Assembly (NCBI GenBank): GCA_026993045.1
Contig: JALWWR010000062.1
Coordinates: 10,268-22,148, forward strand
Length of the DNA stretch: 11,881 nt
Direction: 5' to 3'
Origin: Thermodesulfatator sp.
Lineage (GTDB): Bacteria > Desulfobacterota > Thermodesulfobacteria > Thermodesulfobacteriales > Thermodesulfobacteriaceae
Below the pieces are notes generated by a model. The model ran no database searches. It had not been told where the DNA came from and was given only the letters and a program-made list of their open reading frames with translations. The translations under genes and the position numbers were made by a program. Below, piece after piece: positions 1-9,743 of the stretch (positions are counted from its first letter, which is position 1; each line of letters begins with the position of its first letter).

Positions 1-608
1 AGGAGTTGCGTTACCGCGGGGGCCTCCTGGAGGGCCTTTTCAGCGGCGGCGATTTCTTCTTCGGTGGCCGAAGGCATACGCTGGATCAAAAAGCCCCCGG
101 CCTCTTTCACCGAGCCGTCGATCTCTACCAGGACTCCCAGGGCCACCGCTGAGGGGATCTGCTCCGAAACCGTAAGATAATAGGCGAGGTCCTGGGCGAT
201 CTCTCCCGAAACCAATTTCACCGAGCTTTGATAGGGCTCCTTTAGTCCCAAATCTCTAACCACGGAAAGGAAGCCGTTTTTTCCTACGGCGGCTCCTACG
301 GCAAGTTTTCCTCCTTGAGGCTCAAGATGCACGTGTGGGCGCTGAACTGTGCCCCGGAGATTCCCTTCGGCATCCCCCTCGGCCAGGATTTCCCCCAGCG
401 GCCCGCCTCCGTTTATCTGGAGCATGACGCGGCCGGTCTTAAGATCCGCGGCCAAAAGCGCCGCCCCGGCCAGCGCCCTTCCTAGGGCGGCGGTGGCCGT
501 AGGGGAAAGCCCCTGGAGCCTTCGCACCTCCTCCACCACCTCCCGACACTCCACGGCAAAGACCCGAAAACTTCCCTCCCGTGCCAGCCCTCGCACCACA
601 TAGGCCAT
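1..608 (-). CDS. hslO: Hsp33 redox-regulated chaperone (N-terminal part; C-terminus outside window)
   Basis: From the ATG at 608 the protein begins MAYVVRGLAREGSF and carries the Hsp33 core: SPTATAALGRALAG, MLQINGGGPLG, GNLRGTVQRPHV, LVSGEIAQDLAYYL, and SEQIPSAVALGVLVE followed by GGFLIQRMP. This is the substrate-binding domain of a cytosolic holdase that is switched on by oxidative unfolding. About 202 residues of the usual 290 or so are present. The C-terminal zinc switch (CxC plus CxxC) lies beyond base 1 and cannot be verified. An AGGAGG lies 9 nt upstream, with AAAGGA closer, so independent initiation is likely even though the same frame is also the continuation of the sirtuin reading frame. 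The ribosome-binding site doubles as the sirtuin's final codons (Leu-Leu-Arg-Arg-Tyr-Lys-Gly). Family assignment is confident; start use as a separate protein is inferred. Confidence 0.88.
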   Translation of the reverse strand, partial: MAYVVRGLAREGSFRVFAVECREVVEEVRRLQGLSPTATAALGRALAGAALLAADLKTGRVMLQINGGGPLGEILAEGDAEGNLRGTVQRPHVHLEPQGGKLAVGAAVGKNGFLSVVRDLGLKEPYQSSVKLVSGEIAQDLAYYLTVSEQIPSAVALGVLVEIDGSVKEAGGFLIQRMPSATEEEIAAAEKALQEAPAVTQL

Positions 609-1313
609 TCCTTTATACCTCCTTAACAGCTCCTTTACCCATTCCGGGACCTTTTGGCTCGCCGGGCCATAGCGGTGTTCATGGAAGAGGTGAGCGTTTT
701 CCGCGGGTTTAAGGTTGATCTCCACGCAATAGGCCCCGCTCGTGCGGGCCACTTCCACGAAACCGGCTGCCGGATAAACCGTTCCCGAGGTCCCGATGGC
801 CACGAAAAGATCGCACCTGGTAAGGGCCTCGTAGACCTCGGGAAGACAGAAGGGCTCCTCCCCGAACCAGACCACATGGGGCCTCAAGCCCCCGGATCTT
901 CCGCAGGCCGGACACGGGGTCTCGGGAAAGACCTCCCCGGTCTCCCGAAAGACCCCGCCGCAGAGTTCACAGCGTACCTTGAGGAGTTCTCCGTGGATAT
1001 GGATCAGGCGCCGGCTTCCAGCCCGTTCATGAAGGTCGTCCACGTTCTGGGTCACCAGCAGGAATTCCCCGGGCCAGGCCCTCTCGAGTTCGGCCAGAGC
1101 ATAATGGGCCGGATTGGGCTTTACCCGCAAAAGATCGCGCCTTCTTGCGTTATAGAACTCGTGCACCAGACGGGGATTCTGGCGAAACCCCTCCGGAGTG
1201 GCCACTTCGTTAAGATCGTACTTTTCCCAGAGCCCGCCAGCGTCCCGGAAGGTGGGAATGCCGGATTCGGCCGAAATGCCCGCCCCGGTGAGGATCACGA
1301 GCCTTTTCTTCAT
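1..1313 (-). CDS. cobB: CobB-like sirtuin (NAD-dependent protein deacylase) reading in frame into Hsp33; 3' end outside window
   Basis: From the ATG at 1313 the frame is open to the window edge (437 codons) with no stop between the two domains; I read every codon from 1313 to 606. Residues 1-235 are a complete Sir2 catalytic core: GAGISAESGIPTFR (10-23) for NAD, TQNVDDLHERAG (88-99), catalytic His107 in HIHGE, zinc cysteines C115, C118, C134 and C137, and IGTSG-VYPAAGF near the end. Y54 and R57 (FYNARRR) match the YxxR pair that marks CobB/SIRT5-type sirtuins, which remove succinyl as well as acetyl groups. The C-terminus, GPASQKVPEWVKELL, is where CobB normally ends; Hsp33 begins at residue 236. 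The start overlaps the hepT stop (ATGA). In enterobacteria CobB reactivates acetylated Acs, and acs lies upstream on this strand. The domain calls are secure; whether one fused protein is made is uncertain. Confidence 0.85.
   Translation of the reverse strand, partial: MKKRLVILTGAGISAESGIPTFRDAGGLWEKYDLNEVATPEGFRQNPRLVHEFYNARRRDLLRVKPNPAHYALAELERAWPGEFLLVTQNVDDLHERAGSRRLIHIHGELLKVRCELCGGVFRETGEVFPETPCPACGRSGGLRPHVVWFGEEPFCLPEVYEALTRCDLFVAIGTSGTVYPAAGFVEVARTSGAYCVEINLKPAENAHLFHEHRYGPASQKVPEWVKELLRRYKGMAYVVRGLAREGSFRVFAVECREVVEEVRRLQGLSPTATAALGRALAGAALLAADLKTGRVMLQINGGGPLGEILAEGDAEGNLRGTVQRPHVHLEPQGGKLAVGAAVGKNGFLSVVRDLGLKEPYQSSVKLVSGEIAQDLAYYLTVSEQIPSAVALGVLVEIDGSVKEAGGFLIQRMPSATEEEIAAAEKALQEAPAVTQL
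609..625 (-). promoter_or_regulatory. Internal Shine-Dalgarno for hslO inside the sirtuin frame
   Basis: On the minus strand the bases read AAGGAGGTATAAAGGA directly before ATG at 608. AGGAGG is 9 nt from the ATG and a second purine run (AAAGGA) abuts it. The site lies within codons that are in phase with the sirtuin, which argues that hslO retains its own start in addition to any read-through. Confidence 0.75.
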
Positions 1314-1723
1314 AAATGCTTCTCAAGCTCACGGAGAAATATCTCCACCTCCACAAGTCGGGGCAGTATCTCCTCGCAGACGAGATCTTTCTTTACCTTT
1401 TCGTATCCGTGAGCCAGGAGGTTTCTCAACCCGGCTATGCGGGAAAATTCGTAAGCGAAATTCGAGGGAAGCAAACCTCGATCCCCAAGCATCTCCACGG
1501 CTTCCTGATAGGACTGAGGGATACCCAGATCCTTGAACCGAATCATCATCTGGGCCAGAGCCACGCAGCTATCCGCAATAAGGTAAAGATAGTGGAGAAA
1601 GGCTCCCCGATAAAGGGGATCGCTTTCAAAACGCTCAAGGCAGTCCTTCTCTATACTTCGAATAAGGGTCAAGTATTCCCGCACTCTTTCTATTGTCTTG
1701 GCGATACGTTCCCTATCGTTCAT
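1310..1723 (-). CDS. hepT: HepT-type HEPN toxin (MntA/HepT toxin-antitoxin)
   Basis: A 137-residue, largely helical protein of the HepT (DUF86) family. The HEPN ribonuclease motif RX4HXY is seen as RNLLAHGY, with R100, H105 and Y107, towards the C-terminus as usual for the family. In characterised homologues HepT is an RNase toxin and the tyrosine of this motif is AMPylated by the partner MntA, which silences it; that behaviour is inferred here from motif conservation. The start codon overlaps the mntA stop (ATGA at 1720-1723) and its own stop overlaps the sirtuin start (ATGA at 1310-1313). The three genes are therefore likely translationally coupled, with the antitoxin made first. The length is normal and the motif intact, so it is probably functional. 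Confidence 0.87.
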   Translation of the reverse strand: MNDRERIAKTIERVREYLTLIRSIEKDCLERFESDPLYRGAFLHYLYLIADSCVALAQMMIRFKDLGIPQSYQEAVEMLGDRGLLPSNFAYEFSRIAGLRNLLAHGYEKVKKDLVCEEILPRLVEVEIFLRELEKHL

Positions 1724-2115
1724 CTTCCCAGGATCCGGCGGCGGGTCTCCCGAAAGTCCAGGGCCAAGTGCAAAGTCTCCACCTCGAATTCGAAGCGGAC
1801 TCCGGGGTCTCTCTCAAAGAGGAGTTTCCCTTCCCGGATGATGCTCTCAAGCAGGATGAGGTTTTCCGTACGGTTGAGCACCACCAGATCCAGGTCGTCC
1901 CGCTTCAGGGCCCGAGAGCAGGCGGCGTAAAGGTCAAGAAAGCGCTTATGGCTATAAGGCTCAAGATAGACCGCAAGGTCGAGATCGCTAAGAGGCCCGG
2001 CCTTTCCCCTGGCGAGCGACCCGAAAAGATAGGCGAACTTTACCTCTGGAAAGCTTTCCCAGACCGGAGAAAGCTTCTGACGAATCTCCTCTATTTGCCT
2101 GGTATTTTCTGGCAT
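1720..2115 (-). CDS. mntA: MntA-type minimal nucleotidyltransferase antitoxin
   Basis: A 131-residue minimal nucleotidyltransferase. The signature GSX10DXD is clear: G32-S33 in LFGSLARG, then D44 and D46 in LSDLDLAVYL. A likely third metal ligand is D76 in DDLDLVVL. Known MntA enzymes transfer AMP from ATP to the HepT tyrosine and so neutralise the toxin; the intact partner motif directly downstream supports the same role here. The ATG at 2115 follows the acs stop by 59 bp. There is no classical AGGAGG; the only G-rich stretch is the right arm of a hairpin (2120-2162), 6 nt from the ATG, so access to the start may depend on that structure. A housekeeping nucleotidyltransferase is unlikely because of the overlapped hepT. 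Confidence 0.85.
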   Translation of the reverse strand: MPENTRQIEEIRQKLSPVWESFPEVKFAYLFGSLARGKAGPLSDLDLAVYLEPYSHKRFLDLYAACSRALKRDDLDLVVLNRTENLILLESIIREGKLLFERDPGVRFEFEVETLHLALDFRETRRRILGR

Positions 2116-2174: not shown

Positions 2175-4163
2175 TTATTTTCCTTCCATTTCCTTTCGGG
2201 TGCGGATAAGATCCTCCACCACCGAAGGATCGGCCAAAGTGGAAGTGTCTCCCAGGTCTTCGTACTGACCGGTAGCGATCTTTCGAAGTATGCGCCGCAT
2301 GATCTTTCCGCTTCTGGTCTTAGGAAGTCCTGAGACGAACTGGATGAATTCCGGGGTGGCGATAGGACCGATGACCTTCCGCACGTGCTGTTTGAGATCC
2401 TTTTCCAGTTCCTCCGAAGCCTCATAACCTTCACGCAGGATGACGAAGGCGTAGATGGTTTCGCCCTTCACCTCGTGCGGTACCCCGATCACCGCAGCTT
2501 CGGCTACCGCCGGGTGGGCCACGAGCGCACTCTCAAGCTCCATAGTACCCAGCCGGTGCCCAGAGACGTTGATCACGTCGTCAAGACGCCCGATGATCCA
2601 GATGTAGCCGTCCTCGTCCCTCCTGGCCCCGTCACCAGTATAGTAGTAGCCAGGGAACCGACTGAAATAGACCTGTTTGAACCTTTCTGGGTCTCCCCAT
2701 ACGCCACGGAGCATTCCCGGCCAGGCCCGCTTCATACAGAGATGCCCTCCCTCGTTCACCTCCGCCGGGGTTCCGTCGTCCCTCAAGATAATCGGCTCTA
2801 CACCGGGGAGAGGGAAGGTAGCGGAACCCGGCTTCTGCGGGATGGCGTAAGGGAGAGGTGAGATCAGAAAACCGCCGGTTTCGGTCTGCCACCAGGTGTC
2901 TACAATGGGACAGCGTCCGCGGCCCACGTGTTTGTGATACCAGAGCCAGGCCTCGGGATTGATGGGCTCGCCAACCGAACCGAGAATCCTCAGAGTCGAA
3001 AGATCGTACTTGTGAGGCCATTCGTCTCCGGCGCGCATGAGGGCTCGGATGACGGTAGGGGCAGTGTAAAAAAGCGTTACTTTGAACTTCTGGCAGAGCT
3101 CCCAGAAACGTCCGGGATGAGGATAGGTGGGTACTCCCTCATACATAATCTCCGTAGCCCCTAGAGCCAGCGGCCCATAAACGATGTAGGAGTGACCAGT
3201 GATCCAACCGATGTCGGCGGTGCACCAGAAAATGTCCTCCGGTTTGAGATCGAAAACCCACTGTAGGGTATGCGCTACATAAACTAAGTATCCCCCGGTA
3301 GTGTGGAAAACCCCTTTAGGCTTTCCGGTGGAACCCGAGGTGTAGAGGATGAAAAGGATGTCCTCGGCGTCCATCTCTTCGCATTCGCAGTAATCTGAGA
3401 TATCCGGGTCGTTTATTAGCTCGTGATACCAGAGATCCCGCCCTTCAACCCAGTTGATCTCGTTTCCCAGGCGCTTGACCACCACACACTTTTCCACCGT
3501 GGGGCAATCTTTGAGGGCCTCATCGGCGTTTTTCTTGGAAGTCACCTGTTTTCCCGAACGCCAGTAGCCGTCGGCGGTGATCAGCAGTTTAGCCTCACAG
3601 TCCTGAATACGGGTCTTGAGCGCTTCAGCCGAAAATCCTCCAAAAACTACCGAATGTATGGCCCCGATCCGGGCGCAGGCCAGCATCACGATGGGAAGCT
3701 CCGGAATCATCGGGAGATAAATAGCCACCCGATCGCCCTTCTTTATACCCAGTTTCTTGAGAGCGTTAGCAAAGCGGCAGACCTCCCGGTGAAGCATCTG
3801 ATAGGTATAGACCCGGACCTCCTCATCGGGTTCTCCTTGCCAAATAATGGCGGCTTTGTTCCGATTAGGACCTTGAACGTGACGGTCCAGACAGTTGTAA
3901 CAAGCGTTGAGCTTCCCCCCCTCGAACCACCGGATCTCAGGTTTGTTAAAGTCCCAGTAACAGGTCCGATCCCAAAACTTGAACCAGGAGATCAGCTCCT
4001 TGGCCCGTTCGCTCCAAAAGCCTTCCGGATCTTCCAAAGAGTACCGATAAATCTCTTGATACTCATACTTGGAAGAGATAAAAGCCCGATCCCTTTCCGC
4101 CTGAGGAGGATAAAAGATCCGTTCTTCCTTTAATACCGATTCAATCTTGCTGGTTTCTCCCAT
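2175..4163 (-). CDS. acs: Acetyl-CoA synthetase (AMP-forming)
   Basis: A cytosolic enzyme that makes acetyl-CoA from acetate, ATP and CoA through acetyl-AMP. At 662 residues it has the normal Acs length. Motifs in order: P-loop [10 protein letters not shown] (275-284), acetate-pocket tryptophan motif WWQTETGG (424-431), [13 protein letters not shown] (508-520), hinge region [16 protein letters not shown] (525-540), and C-terminal [17 protein letters not shown] with catalytic K620. That lysine is the one acetylated by Pat-type enzymes and deacetylated by CobB in Salmonella, and a CobB-like sirtuin is encoded downstream on the same strand. The ATG at 4163 has GGAGG 6-7 nt upstream. The divergent plus-strand operon encodes a symporter of the acetate type, so uptake and activation are clustered. 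The upstream leader holds several inverted repeats. Confidence 0.97.
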
Positions 4164-5053: not shown

Positions 5054-6955
5054 ATGGTCATTTATGAAGAAGTTAAAGAATTTTTAAAAAAAGTTCCTCC
5101 CTTCCAGTTTTTAGAAGAAGAAACCCTTTATAGCATAATTCCCTATTTGCAGTTGGATTTCTACCCCAAAGATACGGTGATTTTAAAAGAAGGAGGAGAA
5201 AGTAGTAACTTCCTTTATCTTATTAAAAAGGGAGCGGTCAAAATCACTCTAGAAGGAGAAAAAGGAGAAGAAATCCTCGTAGATATCCGAGGCGAAGGAG
5301 AAACTTTCGGTCTATGGTCTTTGCTAGAGGGACGCCAGCAGACCACCATTCGGGCCTTGGAAGACACCCTCTGCTATCTCCTACCCAAAGAGAAAGTCCT
5401 AGAATTGTTAGATCAAAAAGGTCTATTTAGTGAATTTTTTCTCAAAAAACATATCTCCAAATACTTAGACCGTTTAGTTAAGGAAAGGCTCCCCCGAAAG
5501 GGACTAGATACGGGTTTTGAGAGGGCCTTTTATAGCACCCGAATTGAGGACATCGCCAGCCGCAAAGTCTTCACTGTACCGGCGGAAGCTACAATTCAAG
5601 AAGCGGCGGCCCTCATGGCCCAGGAGAGGATCGGCTCTTTGATTGTGACCGAGGGAGAGCGTCCCGTAGGAATCGTGACCGACCGGGATCTGAGGGAGAA
5701 GGTGGTGGCTTCAGGAAGACTTATTTCTGAGCCGGTAAAGAGTATCATGAACGCCCCTTTGATTACCATTGAAGCCGACCATTTGGTATTTGAAGCCGTA
5801 GCCCTCATGGTTAAAAACCGCATTCATCACCTGCCGGTGGTAAAAGACGGCCGACTTTGCGGCATGCTTACCAACCACGATCTTCTCCTCCTTCAAGGCA
5901 TCTCCCCCCTTACCATCGCCCAAGAGATTCAAAAACAGGACACCATCGAGGGCCTTAGTAAGATTCCTTCCAAGATCATCTCCTTTTTAGGCCTTCTCCT
6001 CAAAGAAGATGTCCCCATCCCCAGCCTCTTGCACGTGATCGTGGAGATGAACGATAGCATCGTGGCCCGCATTTTGGACTTGGTCTTAAAGGACCTGGGA
6101 CCTCCGCCGGTTCCCTTCTGTTGGATAGCTTATGGTTCTGAGGGCCGGCGGGAACAGACCTTTACTACGGATCAGGACAACGGTTTGGTTTATCAGGATC
6201 CAGCCACTCCTGAAGAAACCGTCACATGCGAAAACTACTTTCGAACTCTTGCCAAAAAGACTGTGGAAGCCTTGGTGCAGTGCGGCTTTGCTCGCTGCCC
6301 GGGAAACTACATGGCCAGCAATCCCCGCTGGTGCCAGCCCTTAAAGGTCTGGAAAGATTATTTCCGGCGCTGGATTAATACCCCCACCCCAGAGGCCATT
6401 CTGCAGTCCGTGATCCTTTTTGACTTCCGGGGCCTTTACGGAGAGATCTCCCTGGCGCAAGAATTGAAAGATTTCCTTTTAAAGGAAGTCCGGGGTAAGG
6501 ATATCTTCTTGCTCCATATGGCTAAGCTAACGGTCCAATTCAAACCCCCCTTGGGCTTCTTCCGCACCTTTGTAGTGGAAAAAAGCGGGGAGCATAAAGA
6601 CGAGCTCAACCTTAAATACCGGGGGCTGGCCCCCATTGTAAATATCGCGCGCCTTTGGGCCTTGGAGACCCCCATTGCCGAAACCTCTACCTTGGAACGT
6701 CTTGAAAGGCTTAAAGAAATTCACCCCCTGGCCAAAGAATACGGGCCGGAACTTATGGAGGCCTTCGAATTTCTGATGTCTCTGAGGCTTCACCATCAAT
6801 ATGAACAGGTCCAAAGAGGAGAAAAACCTGACAACTACATCAACCCCAAACACCTTACGCAACTAGAAAGGAAGTTTTTCAAGGAAGTGTGCAGTCTGAT
6901 AAGCAAGGTCCAAGACCGAATCGAAAACAAATATATGTTAGGACGGTTGGGATAA
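5054..6955 (+). CDS. cNMP-binding/CBS-pair/DUF294 nucleotidyltransferase signalling protein
   Basis: A 633-residue cytosolic multidomain protein. Residues about 12-125 resemble a cyclic-nucleotide-binding beta-roll (VILKEGGESSNFLYLIKKG, then GEGETFGLWSLLEGRQQTT). The phosphate-binding cassette lacks an obvious canonical glutamate, so the ligand is unclear. Two CBS domains follow (about 165-218, ending GIVTDRDLREKV; about 227-280, ending CGMLTNHDL). Residues about 300-450 are a DUF294/GlnD-like nucleotidyltransferase with GSX10DXD (G361-S362, D373, D375) and an LFDFRGLYG segment; the rest is the DUF294 C-terminal helical domain. Proteins of this build commonly sit next to acetate symporter genes and are presumed regulators; the modified target is unknown. 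The stop is 1 nt before the exonuclease ATG. The first 450 bp are visibly more A-rich than later genes. No clear ribosome-binding site is seen. Confidence 0.88.
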   Translation: MVIYEEVKEFLKKVPPFQFLEEETLYSIIPYLQLDFYPKDTVILKEGGESSNFLYLIKKGAVKITLEGEKGEEILVDIRGEGETFGLWSLLEGRQQTTIRALEDTLCYLLPKEKVLELLDQKGLFSEFFLKKHISKYLDRLVKERLPRKGLDTGFERAFYSTRIEDIASRKVFTVPAEATIQEAAALMAQERIGSLIVTEGERPVGIVTDRDLREKVVASGRLISEPVKSIMNAPLITIEADHLVFEAVALMVKNRIHHLPVVKDGRLCGMLTNHDLLLLQGISPLTIAQEIQKQDTIEGLSKIPSKIISFLGLLLKEDVPIPSLLHVIVEMNDSIVARILDLVLKDLGPPPVPFCWIAYGSEGRREQTFTTDQDNGLVYQDPATPEETVTCENYFRTLAKKTVEALVQCGFARCPGNYMASNPRWCQPLKVWKDYFRRWINTPTPEAILQSVILFDFRGLYGEISLAQELKDFLLKEVRGKDIFLLHMAKLTVQFKPPLGFFRTFVVEKSGEHKDELNLKYRGLAPIVNIARLWALETPIAETSTLERLERLKEIHPLAKEYGPELMEAFEFLMSLRLHHQYEQVQRGEKPDNYINPKHLTQLERKFFKEVCSLISKVQDRIENKYMLGRLG

Positions 6956-6956
6956 G

Positions 6957-7603
6957 ATGTGGCCTCTTTTTCGAAAACCTCCTGACCGGCCCCTTAATGA
7001 AACCCTCTTTACGGTGCTAGATACCGAACTTACGGGACTTAATCCCAAGACCGATGAGCTTCTTTCTATCGGGGCCTTAAAGATGCAAGGGACCCGAATC
7101 CTCTTGAGCGAAATCTTTTATCGCGAGGTCTATACTACCCGAAACTTTGATCACACCGTCCCCATTCATCAAATATTACCCTCTGATATTCAGGAATCTC
7201 CGGAAATACAGCGCATTCTTCCTGAATTTCGAGACTTTATTCAAAATACCGTATTAGTAGGTTACAACCTGCAACTTGATTTATCTTTCATAAAAAAGTA
7301 TTTCAAGAAGTGGCGTCTAGAGCTTCCCTCGTTACCCAAGGTAGACATATACCGGGTTTATCAATGGCATAAAAAAAAAGTTTGGGCTCGGACGCCTTTT
7401 TCGAGCCTAAGAAAGAATATGTCTCATTGATCCGAATGGCGGGGGAATACGGGGTGGAGACCAAAATTTTACACCACGCCCTTTATGACGCCTACCTTAC
7501 AGCCCAGATCTTTCAGAGACAACTTTGGCAACTCCAAAAACAAGGGGTTCGGAAACTCTCAGAACTTTTAATTATTTCTAAAAAAGGAGGTGATATGCTA
7601 TGA
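6957..7603 (+). CDS. DnaQ-family 3'-5' exonuclease, split by a frameshift at an A9 run
   Basis: The zero frame (6957-7430, 157 residues) begins with Exo I, TVLDTELTG (D22, E24), and has Exo II, VGYNLQLDLSFI (D108), then stops after a short tail. The remainder of the fold is in the -1 frame (open from 7373, stop at 7601-7603) and contains Exo III, HHALYDA (H173, D178 in the joined 215-residue protein), completing a DEDDh active site. The crossing point must lie between 7373 and 7430, and the A9 run at 7371-7379 is the obvious place. Joined there, the protein reads WHKKK-SLGSDAFF and has a normal single-domain length. Exonucleases of this kind accompany DUF294 proteins in acetate-symporter operons; their role there is not established. 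The break may be programmed, a true lesion or a homopolymer sequencing error. Confidence 0.8.
7371..7410 (+). promoter_or_regulatory. Candidate -1 frameshift signal: A9 slippery run plus stem-loop
   Basis: Nine adenines (7371-7379), read as AAA AAA AAA in the zero frame, are followed after 5 nt by GGCTCG (7385-7390), an 11-nt loop and CGAGCC (7402-7407). The stem can be extended outwards to TTGGGCTCG/CGAGCCTAA with one G-U pair. The layout matches known bacterial -1 ribosomal frameshift or transcriptional slippage sites such as dnaX, and the shift direction is the one needed to complete the exonuclease. Confidence 0.5.
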
Positions 7604-7946: not shown

Positions 7947-9743
7947 ATGGGCATTATGACCTGGACTTGGATAATGGTAGGTCTTACCTTTGCGCTTTAT
8001 ATTGGCATCGCCATCTGGTCCAAGGCTCGGACCACCGGGGACTTTTATGTAGCGGCCCGGCAGGTCCATCCCGTGTTAAACGGGATGGCCACCGGAGCGG
8101 ACTGGATGTCAGCGGCTTCCTTCATCTCTATGGCCGGGTTGATAGCTTTCCTGGGACGGGACGGTTCTATGTATCTTATGGGGTGGACCGGAGGGTATGT
8201 GCTTCTAGCCATGCTCCTGGCCCCTTACCTTCGGAAATACGGAAAATATACCGTCCCTATGTTCGTGGGCGAGCGCTACTATTCTCAGACGGCCCGCACG
8301 GTGGCGGTGATCTGTGCCATCTTCGTCTCTTTCGTTTATGTAGCCGGTCAGATGCGAGGGGTAGGAGTGGTCTTCTCCCGGTTCTTGGAAGTAGATATTA
8401 ACACTGGAGTTCTGATCGGAATGGCCATCGTCTTCTTCTACGCCGTATTAGGGGGCATGAAGGGCATCACCTACACCCAAGTAGCTCAGTACTGCGTATT
8501 GATTACAGCCTATCTGATTCCGGCCATCTTTATCGCCTTAATGTTTACAGGGATCCCTATCCCTCAGATTGGTCTGGGAGCGGCCCTGAGCGAAGCCGGA
8601 CAAAGGCTTCTTAACACCGACGCCGGCTATCTTCTAGAAAAATTGGATCAGATCCAGCGGGATCTAGGACTTCCAGCCTTCACCTCCGGGCTCAAACCTC
8701 GAATCGACGTCTTTGCCATTACTCTTACCCTCATGGTAGGAACCGCCGGGCTTCCTCATATCATCATCCGTTTCTTCACTACGCCCAAAGTCCGAGACGC
8801 CCGGGCCTCGGCTGGATGGGCCTTGTTTTTTATCGCCATCCTTTACACCACGGCCCCGGCGGTGGGAGCCTTTGCCAAGCTCAACTTCATCAAAACGGTG
8901 CACGGCAAAACTTACGCGGAAGCCCCTTCGTGGTTCAAGAACTGGGAAAAGACCGGTCTTATCATTTGGGTAGACAAAAACGGGGACGGCCGGATGCAAT
9001 ACGGCCCTGGCAAACCTTTCAAGGGCAAACCCATTCTAGTAAAAGATGAAAAAGGCAATCTGGTGCGGGGCAAATACGGTCAGGTAGTAGTCAAAAATGA
9101 AGTTATCCCCAACACTCCTAACGAGCTCTATGTGGACCGCGATATTATGGTCTTGGCCAACCCTGAGATCGCCAAACTCCCGGCCTGGGTGGTGGCCCTG
9201 GTAGCGGCTGGCGGTCTGGCAGCGGCCCTTTCCACTGCGGCCGGGCTCCTCCTGGTCATCTCCTCGGCCCTTTCCCACGACCTTCTCAAAAACGTTATCG
9301 CCCCTCAAATCTCGGAACGAACCGAACTTTTTGCGGCCCGGATCGCAGCCGCCTTGGCGGTCTTGGTGGCCGGATATTTCGGGATCCATCCCCCGGGATT
9401 CGTGGCTCAGGTGGTGGCCTTTGCCTTCGGGCTAGCAGCCTCTTCCTTCTTCCCCATTATCGTTTTAGGAGTCTTCTGGAAACGAACCACCCGGGAAGGA
9501 GCTATTGCCGGCATGCTTACCGGGATCATCTTTACCGCGGCCTACATCATCTACTTCAAATTTATCAACCCTGCGGCTAACACCCCTGAGCATTGGTGGT
9601 TCCGGATCTCCCCGGAAGGCATCGGTATGATCGGGATGATTATCAATTTTATAGTCACGGTTCTCGTCTCTTTGGTCACCAAAGAGCCTCCCAAACAGGT
9701 TCAGGAAATGGTCTTGAGCCTGCGCTATCCCAAAGAGATGTAA
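7947..9743 (+). CDS. Sodium:solute symporter of the acetate (ActP/VC_2705) type
   Basis: A 598-residue polytopic inner-membrane protein of the SSS family. Visible hallmarks are the early ATGADWMSAASFISMAG segment, the GGMKGITYTQVAQY region, GLPHIIIRFFTTP, and late helices LAAALSTAAGLLLVISSALSHD and AFGLAASSFFPIIVLGVFW. The preceding DUF4212 gene places it in the VC_2705 branch, whose members are annotated as cation/acetate symporters. Acetate is inferred from the divergent acs gene rather than from specific residues. Residues about 320-395 form a hydrophilic insertion between membrane segments that includes DKNGDGRMQY (from D343), an EF-hand-like loop. The start has GGGAGGTG 7-8 nt upstream. 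It is the last gene before a strong terminator. Confidence 0.9.
   Translation: MGIMTWTWIMVGLTFALYIGIAIWSKARTTGDFYVAARQVHPVLNGMATGADWMSAASFISMAGLIAFLGRDGSMYLMGWTGGYVLLAMLLAPYLRKYGKYTVPMFVGERYYSQTARTVAVICAIFVSFVYVAGQMRGVGVVFSRFLEVDINTGVLIGMAIVFFYAVLGGMKGITYTQVAQYCVLITAYLIPAIFIALMFTGIPIPQIGLGAALSEAGQRLLNTDAGYLLEKLDQIQRDLGLPAFTSGLKPRIDVFAITLTLMVGTAGLPHIIIRFFTTPKVRDARASAGWALFFIAILYTTAPAVGAFAKLNFIKTVHGKTYAEAPSWFKNWEKTGLIIWVDKNGDGRMQYGPGKPFKGKPILVKDEKGNLVRGKYGQVVVKNEVIPNTPNELYVDRDIMVLANPEIAKLPAWVVALVAAGGLAAALSTAAGLLLVISSALSHDLLKNVIAPQISERTELFAARIAAALAVLVAGYFGIHPPGFVAQVVAFAFGLAASSFFPIIVLGVFWKRTTREGAIAGMLTGIIFTAAYIIYFKFINPAANTPEHWWFRISPEGIGMIGMIINFIVTVLVSLVTKEPPKQVQEMVLSLRYPKEM

Follow-up and report, generated by a model that had tools for sequence, protein, structure and literature searches.

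An open frame from a CobB-like sirtuin gene into hslO in a thermophile draft genome, most likely a one-base slip between two adjacent genes

The sirtuin–hslO frame and its gene neighbourhood

The window, i.e., the whole analysed stretch of 11,881 nucleotides, corresponds to positions 10268-22148 of contig C62 in a draft genome of Thermodesulfatator sp. (1.18 Mb, 235 contigs, 64.8% complete). At its left end, on the minus strand, lie a CobB-like sirtuin gene (609..1313) and the first 202 codons of hslO, the gene for Hsp33 (3..608). The open reading frame starting from the ATG at 1313 is free of stops up to the window edge (437 amino acids), and the sirtuin frame reaches the hslO ATG at 608 as its codon 236 (offset 705, phase 0). 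An earlier note had claimed this uninterrupted passage through the 235 sirtuin codons into hslO and on to the window edge, and both the ORF and the codon-by-codon reading bear it out: as a reading of the letters, the observation is correct.

The gene identities proposed in that note also stand. The Pfam profile SIR2 (PF02146) matches residues 10-181 over its entire length (1-180 of 180) with 159.9 bits against a cut-off of 24, and HSP33 (PF01430) matches residues 238-436 with 228.2 bits against 21.4. The sirtuin falls below the cut-offs of both NCBIfam equivalogs (NF001755, 316.1 bits vs. 318; prot_deacyl_CobB NF040867, 214.5 vs. 320). It bears the motifs HIHGELLKVRC, FYNARRR, and CELC...CPAC, which we take to provide the catalytic His, the Y-x-x-R acyl pocket, and the zinc cysteines, respectively; the first two align to the solved CobB chain. 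Its best structural relatives are the solved chains 6rxj and 1s5p, the latter presumably being E. coli CobB (E=1.6e-85, residues 2-232 aligned), and the conserved part of the window sirtuin likewise extends to residue 232 (base 618-626 region). The solved protein terminates within a few residues of this position, whereas the window frame runs on into the next gene.

The Hsp33 part, in contrast to what had been claimed for both domains, is not intact: the Pfam match covers only positions 2-198 of the 273-position profile, because a 10-N scaffold gap (C62:10258-10267) within hslO immediately precedes the first base of the window; the ten Ns there are probably a placeholder. The cut-short gene also scores 205.5 bits against the cut-off of 244 with NF001033, while full-length Hsp33 of relatives comprises 290-291 amino acids. 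The solved chains of the 33 kDa chaperonin, 1vzy and 1vq0, align with the window Hsp33 from its first residue (E=2.1e-48), but here only the first 202 residues are present, with a sirtuin in frame ahead of them. The zinc/redox end of hslO is found past the gap, outside the window and in a different scaffold frame (C62:10025-10257). The C-x-x-C motif is CHFC there, and the C-x-C site reads C-R-G vs. C-R-C in all six aligned relatives, which could reflect either a genuine change or poor sequence at the end of a contig.

Upstream of the sirtuin gene, on the same strand, are a HepT-like gene (1310..1723; PF01934, 84.0 bits), which overlaps the sirtuin start by 4 nt, its MNT-type nucleotidyltransferase partner (1720..2115; PF18765, 77.5 bits), and acs encoding the AMP-forming acetate-CoA ligase (2175..4163; TIGR02188, 1029.2 bits), so that the run here is acs-(MNT-HepT)-cobB-hslO. 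In all seven relatives examined, acs lies upstream of the sirtuin gene on the same strand. The MNT-HepT pair is inserted between them in G006, G009, G012, and G015, as here, but was not found at this place in Thermosulfurimonas dismutans (G002), T. marina (G003), and Thermosulfurimonas sp. (G018), where acs and cobB adjoin. T. dismutans and T. marina share the acs-cobB-hslO order with the window, cobB and hslO being directly adjacent, but, unlike the window, retain a stop between the two. The acs-cobB-hslO run is thus conserved in Thermosulfurimonas-type bacteria, a mildly useful finding in its own right. CobB is known to reactivate acetylated Acs; since acs is a constant upstream neighbour, the predicted sirtuin most likely serves to deacetylate Acs, as gene order and the biology of CobB suggest. 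hslO is probably a neighbour co-transcribed with cobB, and Hsp33 would act as a separate chaperone. A literature search on hslO, cobB, and operon yielded, judging by its title, a Listeria transcriptome study.

The junction in relatives and databases

Among 41 genomes searched, including the source genome itself, 38 gave a match, and seven relatives (G002, G003, G006, G009, G012, G015, and G018) carry the sirtuin gene and hslO close together on the same strand; the sirtuins of G009, G012, and G015 are 90-91% identical to that of the window. The sirtuin stop is kept in all seven, and in six of them its position ranges from 10 nt upstream to 13 nt downstream of the hslO ATG. In T. dismutans (TAG) and Thermosulfurimonas sp. 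(WFPH01000216.1; TAA), the stop precedes the ATG by 3 nt, and the two genes share one phase. G015 has TAG at codon 234, 2 nt before the ATG, and T. marina has TGA at codon 233 from the match start with a 1-nt overlap, hslO being in phase 2 in both cases. The phase also differs from the window's in the three remaining genomes, where the stops are TAG at codon 239 with a 13-nt overlap (G009), TGA at codon 240, 10 nt before the ATG (G006), and TAA at codon 237, as far as 611 nt before the ATG (G012), with another ORF in between (locus L006, 2200-2820; function unassigned). G009 has lost the stop used by G015, and its sirtuin is five codons longer. According to the earlier note, close relatives with a stop at about residue 230-236 and hslO in a shifted frame would speak against a fusion. 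Exactly this is seen in G015 and T. marina; T. dismutans and G018 show the stop but not the shift, and G009, G006, and G012 show the shift with stops slightly further downstream (239, 240, and 237).

In the sirtuin frame, the sequence across the junction is GAG CTG TTA AGG AGG TAT AAA GGA ATG, where the six codons from TTA to GGA (609..626) occupy the place of the relatives' sirtuin stop. As had been noted, hslO keeps its own AGGAGG (618..623), the likely ribosome-binding site, with AAGGAGG being common to G015 and G009, and both other frames meet a stop here (TGT TAA, 623-628; GTA TAA, 613-618). In one of them, AAG GAG GTA TAA (613..624) encodes K-E-V-stop ending 4 nt before the hslO ATG, which matches the end of the G015 sirtuin, AAG GAG GGC TAG (K-E-G-stop), 2 nt before its ATG. 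When the last 27 nt were aligned pairwise with five relatives, the gapped score exceeded the ungapped one in every case, and four alignments (G015, G009, T. dismutans, and T. marina) placed a one-base gap in the window sequence at the same spot, residues 230/231, while in the fifth (G018) a two-base gap appeared on the G018 side instead; the score settings were of our own choice, and all five alignments need another gap beyond AGGAGG. Since the K-E-V-stop matches G015 and four of the five alignments put the gap there, a one-base slip suffices to account for the missing stop.

Once the stop is lost, an in-phase run free of stops is, by our estimate, not improbable: only about five extra codons lie past the shared sirtuin end, and the chance can be put at roughly 1/3 for the phase multiplied by 0.8 for meeting no stop.

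A draw of 297 genomes across the phylum gave matches in 255, and among the listed rows no genome but this one spans both domains stop-free. A protein search with the joined frame, limited to proteins of about 240 amino acids or more, scored 8000 candidates, and the best 120 include no protein with both Pfam domains. Because of this length limit, the sirtuin was also searched alone; the nearest among the matches listed is 88% identical, and proteins P0121-P0129 end 2-5 residues beyond the conserved hydrophobic-Leu pair. Neither search listed a second copy of this species among its matches. Nor do the matches listed include the protein of the joined frame itself, though the database holds a protein from the same contig (P0198); the N gap could account for the absence of the joined-frame protein. 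When contigs of named genomes were scanned, a single locus among the 80 kept gave matches to both parts, the Thermosulfurimonas sp. G018 record, where the stop is present. Taken with the stops of the seven relatives, the absence of a two-domain protein among the best 120 matches argues against the sirtuin–Hsp33 fusion product proposed in the earlier note. The titles and abstract beginnings returned for Hsp33, sirtuin, and fusion mention no such protein, and we know of none previously described.

Two rows of the phylum draw in which the match appeared to extend across the junction (G097, query 114-419; G312, query 194-421) were rejected, as both genomes have their sirtuin matches elsewhere; judging from match positions rather than DNA letters, they are read as over-extended Hsp33 alignments. 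Separately, Hsp33 matches were seen inside unusually long stop-free frames of 834-908 amino acids in G229:C234, G056:C1, G271:C171, and G293:C4, which are either other fusions or merely stop-poor flanks.

Origin of the missing stop

The lost stop is most likely the result of a one-base slip between two ordinary adjacent genes, with no new fused protein. The sirtuin would normally terminate at the start of hslO, where ribosomes would initiate or reinitiate by means of AGGAGG; a frame slip of one base just after the conserved end (...VKELL) would move the usual stop into another frame, so that on paper the two genes become continuous. The earlier note had offered an indel of one base close to the junction as its alternative, and it is this alternative that the evidence favours. 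It is somewhat more probable than not, at about 0.57, that the slip is a sequencing or assembly error. This preference rests on the gap inside hslO and on one other clear frameshift found in about 127 kb of the draft.

That frameshift comes from 40 sampled stretches of the genome, the window's contig included, of which 22, from short contigs, read wholly as N, leaving 168,703 bases, 127,322 of them with a homolog. Nine raw frameshift signatures were obtained, five at N gaps, and the other four were read by eye, all calls of true or spurious frameshifts being our own judgement. One was clear (L198, about 657-678, contig C42, away from N gaps), in a gene carrying LSGGQQ, which we take to be the signature of ABC-transporter ATPases. 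The remaining three (L198 at 5695, L200 at 1992, L207 at about 6245) appear to stem from reference ORFs that are too long or from neighbours joined together and were dropped. Two further non-gap rows obtained with a wider reference set (L133 at 1506 and the opposite strand of the L207 site) were likewise judged spurious, as were all three signatures in the control, T. dismutans contig C1 with 261,778 aligned bases. The low measured rate, resting on one case, also counts against an error, since one falling exactly at the junction is in itself unlikely.

A 2.3-kb part of C62 carries three 10-N gaps (7974, 8706, and 10258), the last of which interrupts hslO, whereas the 9.7 kb sampled on the other side have none. 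However, some 600 bases separate the junction from the gap, and it does not lie at a contig end. The stretch following the gap was considered as a possible site of errors towards G, but the excess proved slight: in the first 80 nt, 10 of the 39 invariant columns differ from all six relatives (seven of the ten to G), vs. 11 of 66 further away (three of the eleven to G). No clear excess of errors is thus seen after the gap, which lowers the odds of an error and raises those of a true loss. As a side observation, the response-regulator-like ORF L114 (8114-8902), which contains the 10-N gap at 8706, has VAEAFR repeated on both sides of it, as if two overlapping contig ends had been joined.

A one-base event may be a real mutation, and a true recent loss of the stop is the principal alternative to a sequence error, possible at rather worse than even odds. 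It would yield a run-on sirtuin–Hsp33 protein of about 525 residues, while internal initiation at the AGGAGG-ATG would still supply free Hsp33. Such a loss is consistent with the open frame and the conservation of both coding parts, with T. dismutans and G018, where both genes share one phase and a single stop separates them, with the natural movement of this stop in G009, which also weakens the case for an error, and with the rarity of frameshift errors in the draft. Against it, none of the seven relatives with both genes nearby shares the loss, and the draft gap lies within hslO itself. Fusion-like ORFs did not turn up in either control direction (0 of 271 and 0 of 307). Compared with T. marina, one of 118 ORFs of this genome is of this kind, the sirtuin–hslO frame, and compared with 400 kb of T. 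dismutans, two of 45 are, i.e., the same frame and a DUF294-type gene at 5054. The latter gene, a DUF294-type CBS/nucleotidyltransferase (5054-6955, plus strand), is one ORF in the window and two ORFs in T. dismutans at about 179627.

An established, selected protein coupling NAD-dependent deacylation to a redox-sensing chaperone is very improbable: the maintained sirtuin-hslO neighbourhood in seven relatives could speak for it, but the fusion is found in no relative and among none of the best 120 protein matches, the linker has only about 5 residues, the other frame still has a stop at the homologous place, and Acs, as the constant upstream neighbour, accounts for the position of the sirtuin.

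It is rather unlikely that this uncultured thermophile truly lacks the cobB-hslO stop and makes a redox-switched chaperone with a deacylase tethered to its N-terminus, along with free Hsp33 from the internal start. If it did, a two-domain protein would have been caught at birth from a tightly spaced gene pair, and it would be the first sirtuin–Hsp33 protein known to us. With no support from any of the seven close relatives, such a protein is probably not made in this form. Under the preferred reading, a one-base sequence error, the case illustrates how a single slipped base between close operon genes can mimic a new two-domain protein.

A conserved frame break in an exonuclease gene

The window also contains a broken frame, which is, in our view, more interesting than the sirtuin–Hsp33 frame. 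A gene for a DnaQ-type exonuclease (6957-7600, plus strand) is interrupted at a run of nine A (7371-7379), and its C-terminal part with HHALYDAY, presumably the third exonuclease motif, continues in a different frame. This break was considered as proof of indel errors in the window and rejected, because the same break is present in two relatives at the same run, with A9 in Thermosulfurimonas sp. (G018, L256) and A8 in T. dismutans (G002, L255); being conserved, it lends no support to an error at the sirtuin–hslO junction.

A search of the exonuclease family matched the second half in six of 30 genomes, strongly in three (this genome, G018, and T. dismutans), while the other three matches, at about 30% identity, were set aside as other proteins by length and identity. 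An out-of-frame tail of the same kind was recognized by eye in P0199. The titles and abstract beginnings retrieved on slippage cover general work and include none on this exonuclease gene. The conserved break looks like transcriptional slippage or programmed frameshifting. To rejoin the two parts, A9 requires a shift of −1 and A8 one of +1 (or −2), and this difference suggests that slippage of RNA polymerase would fit better than one fixed ribosomal shift.
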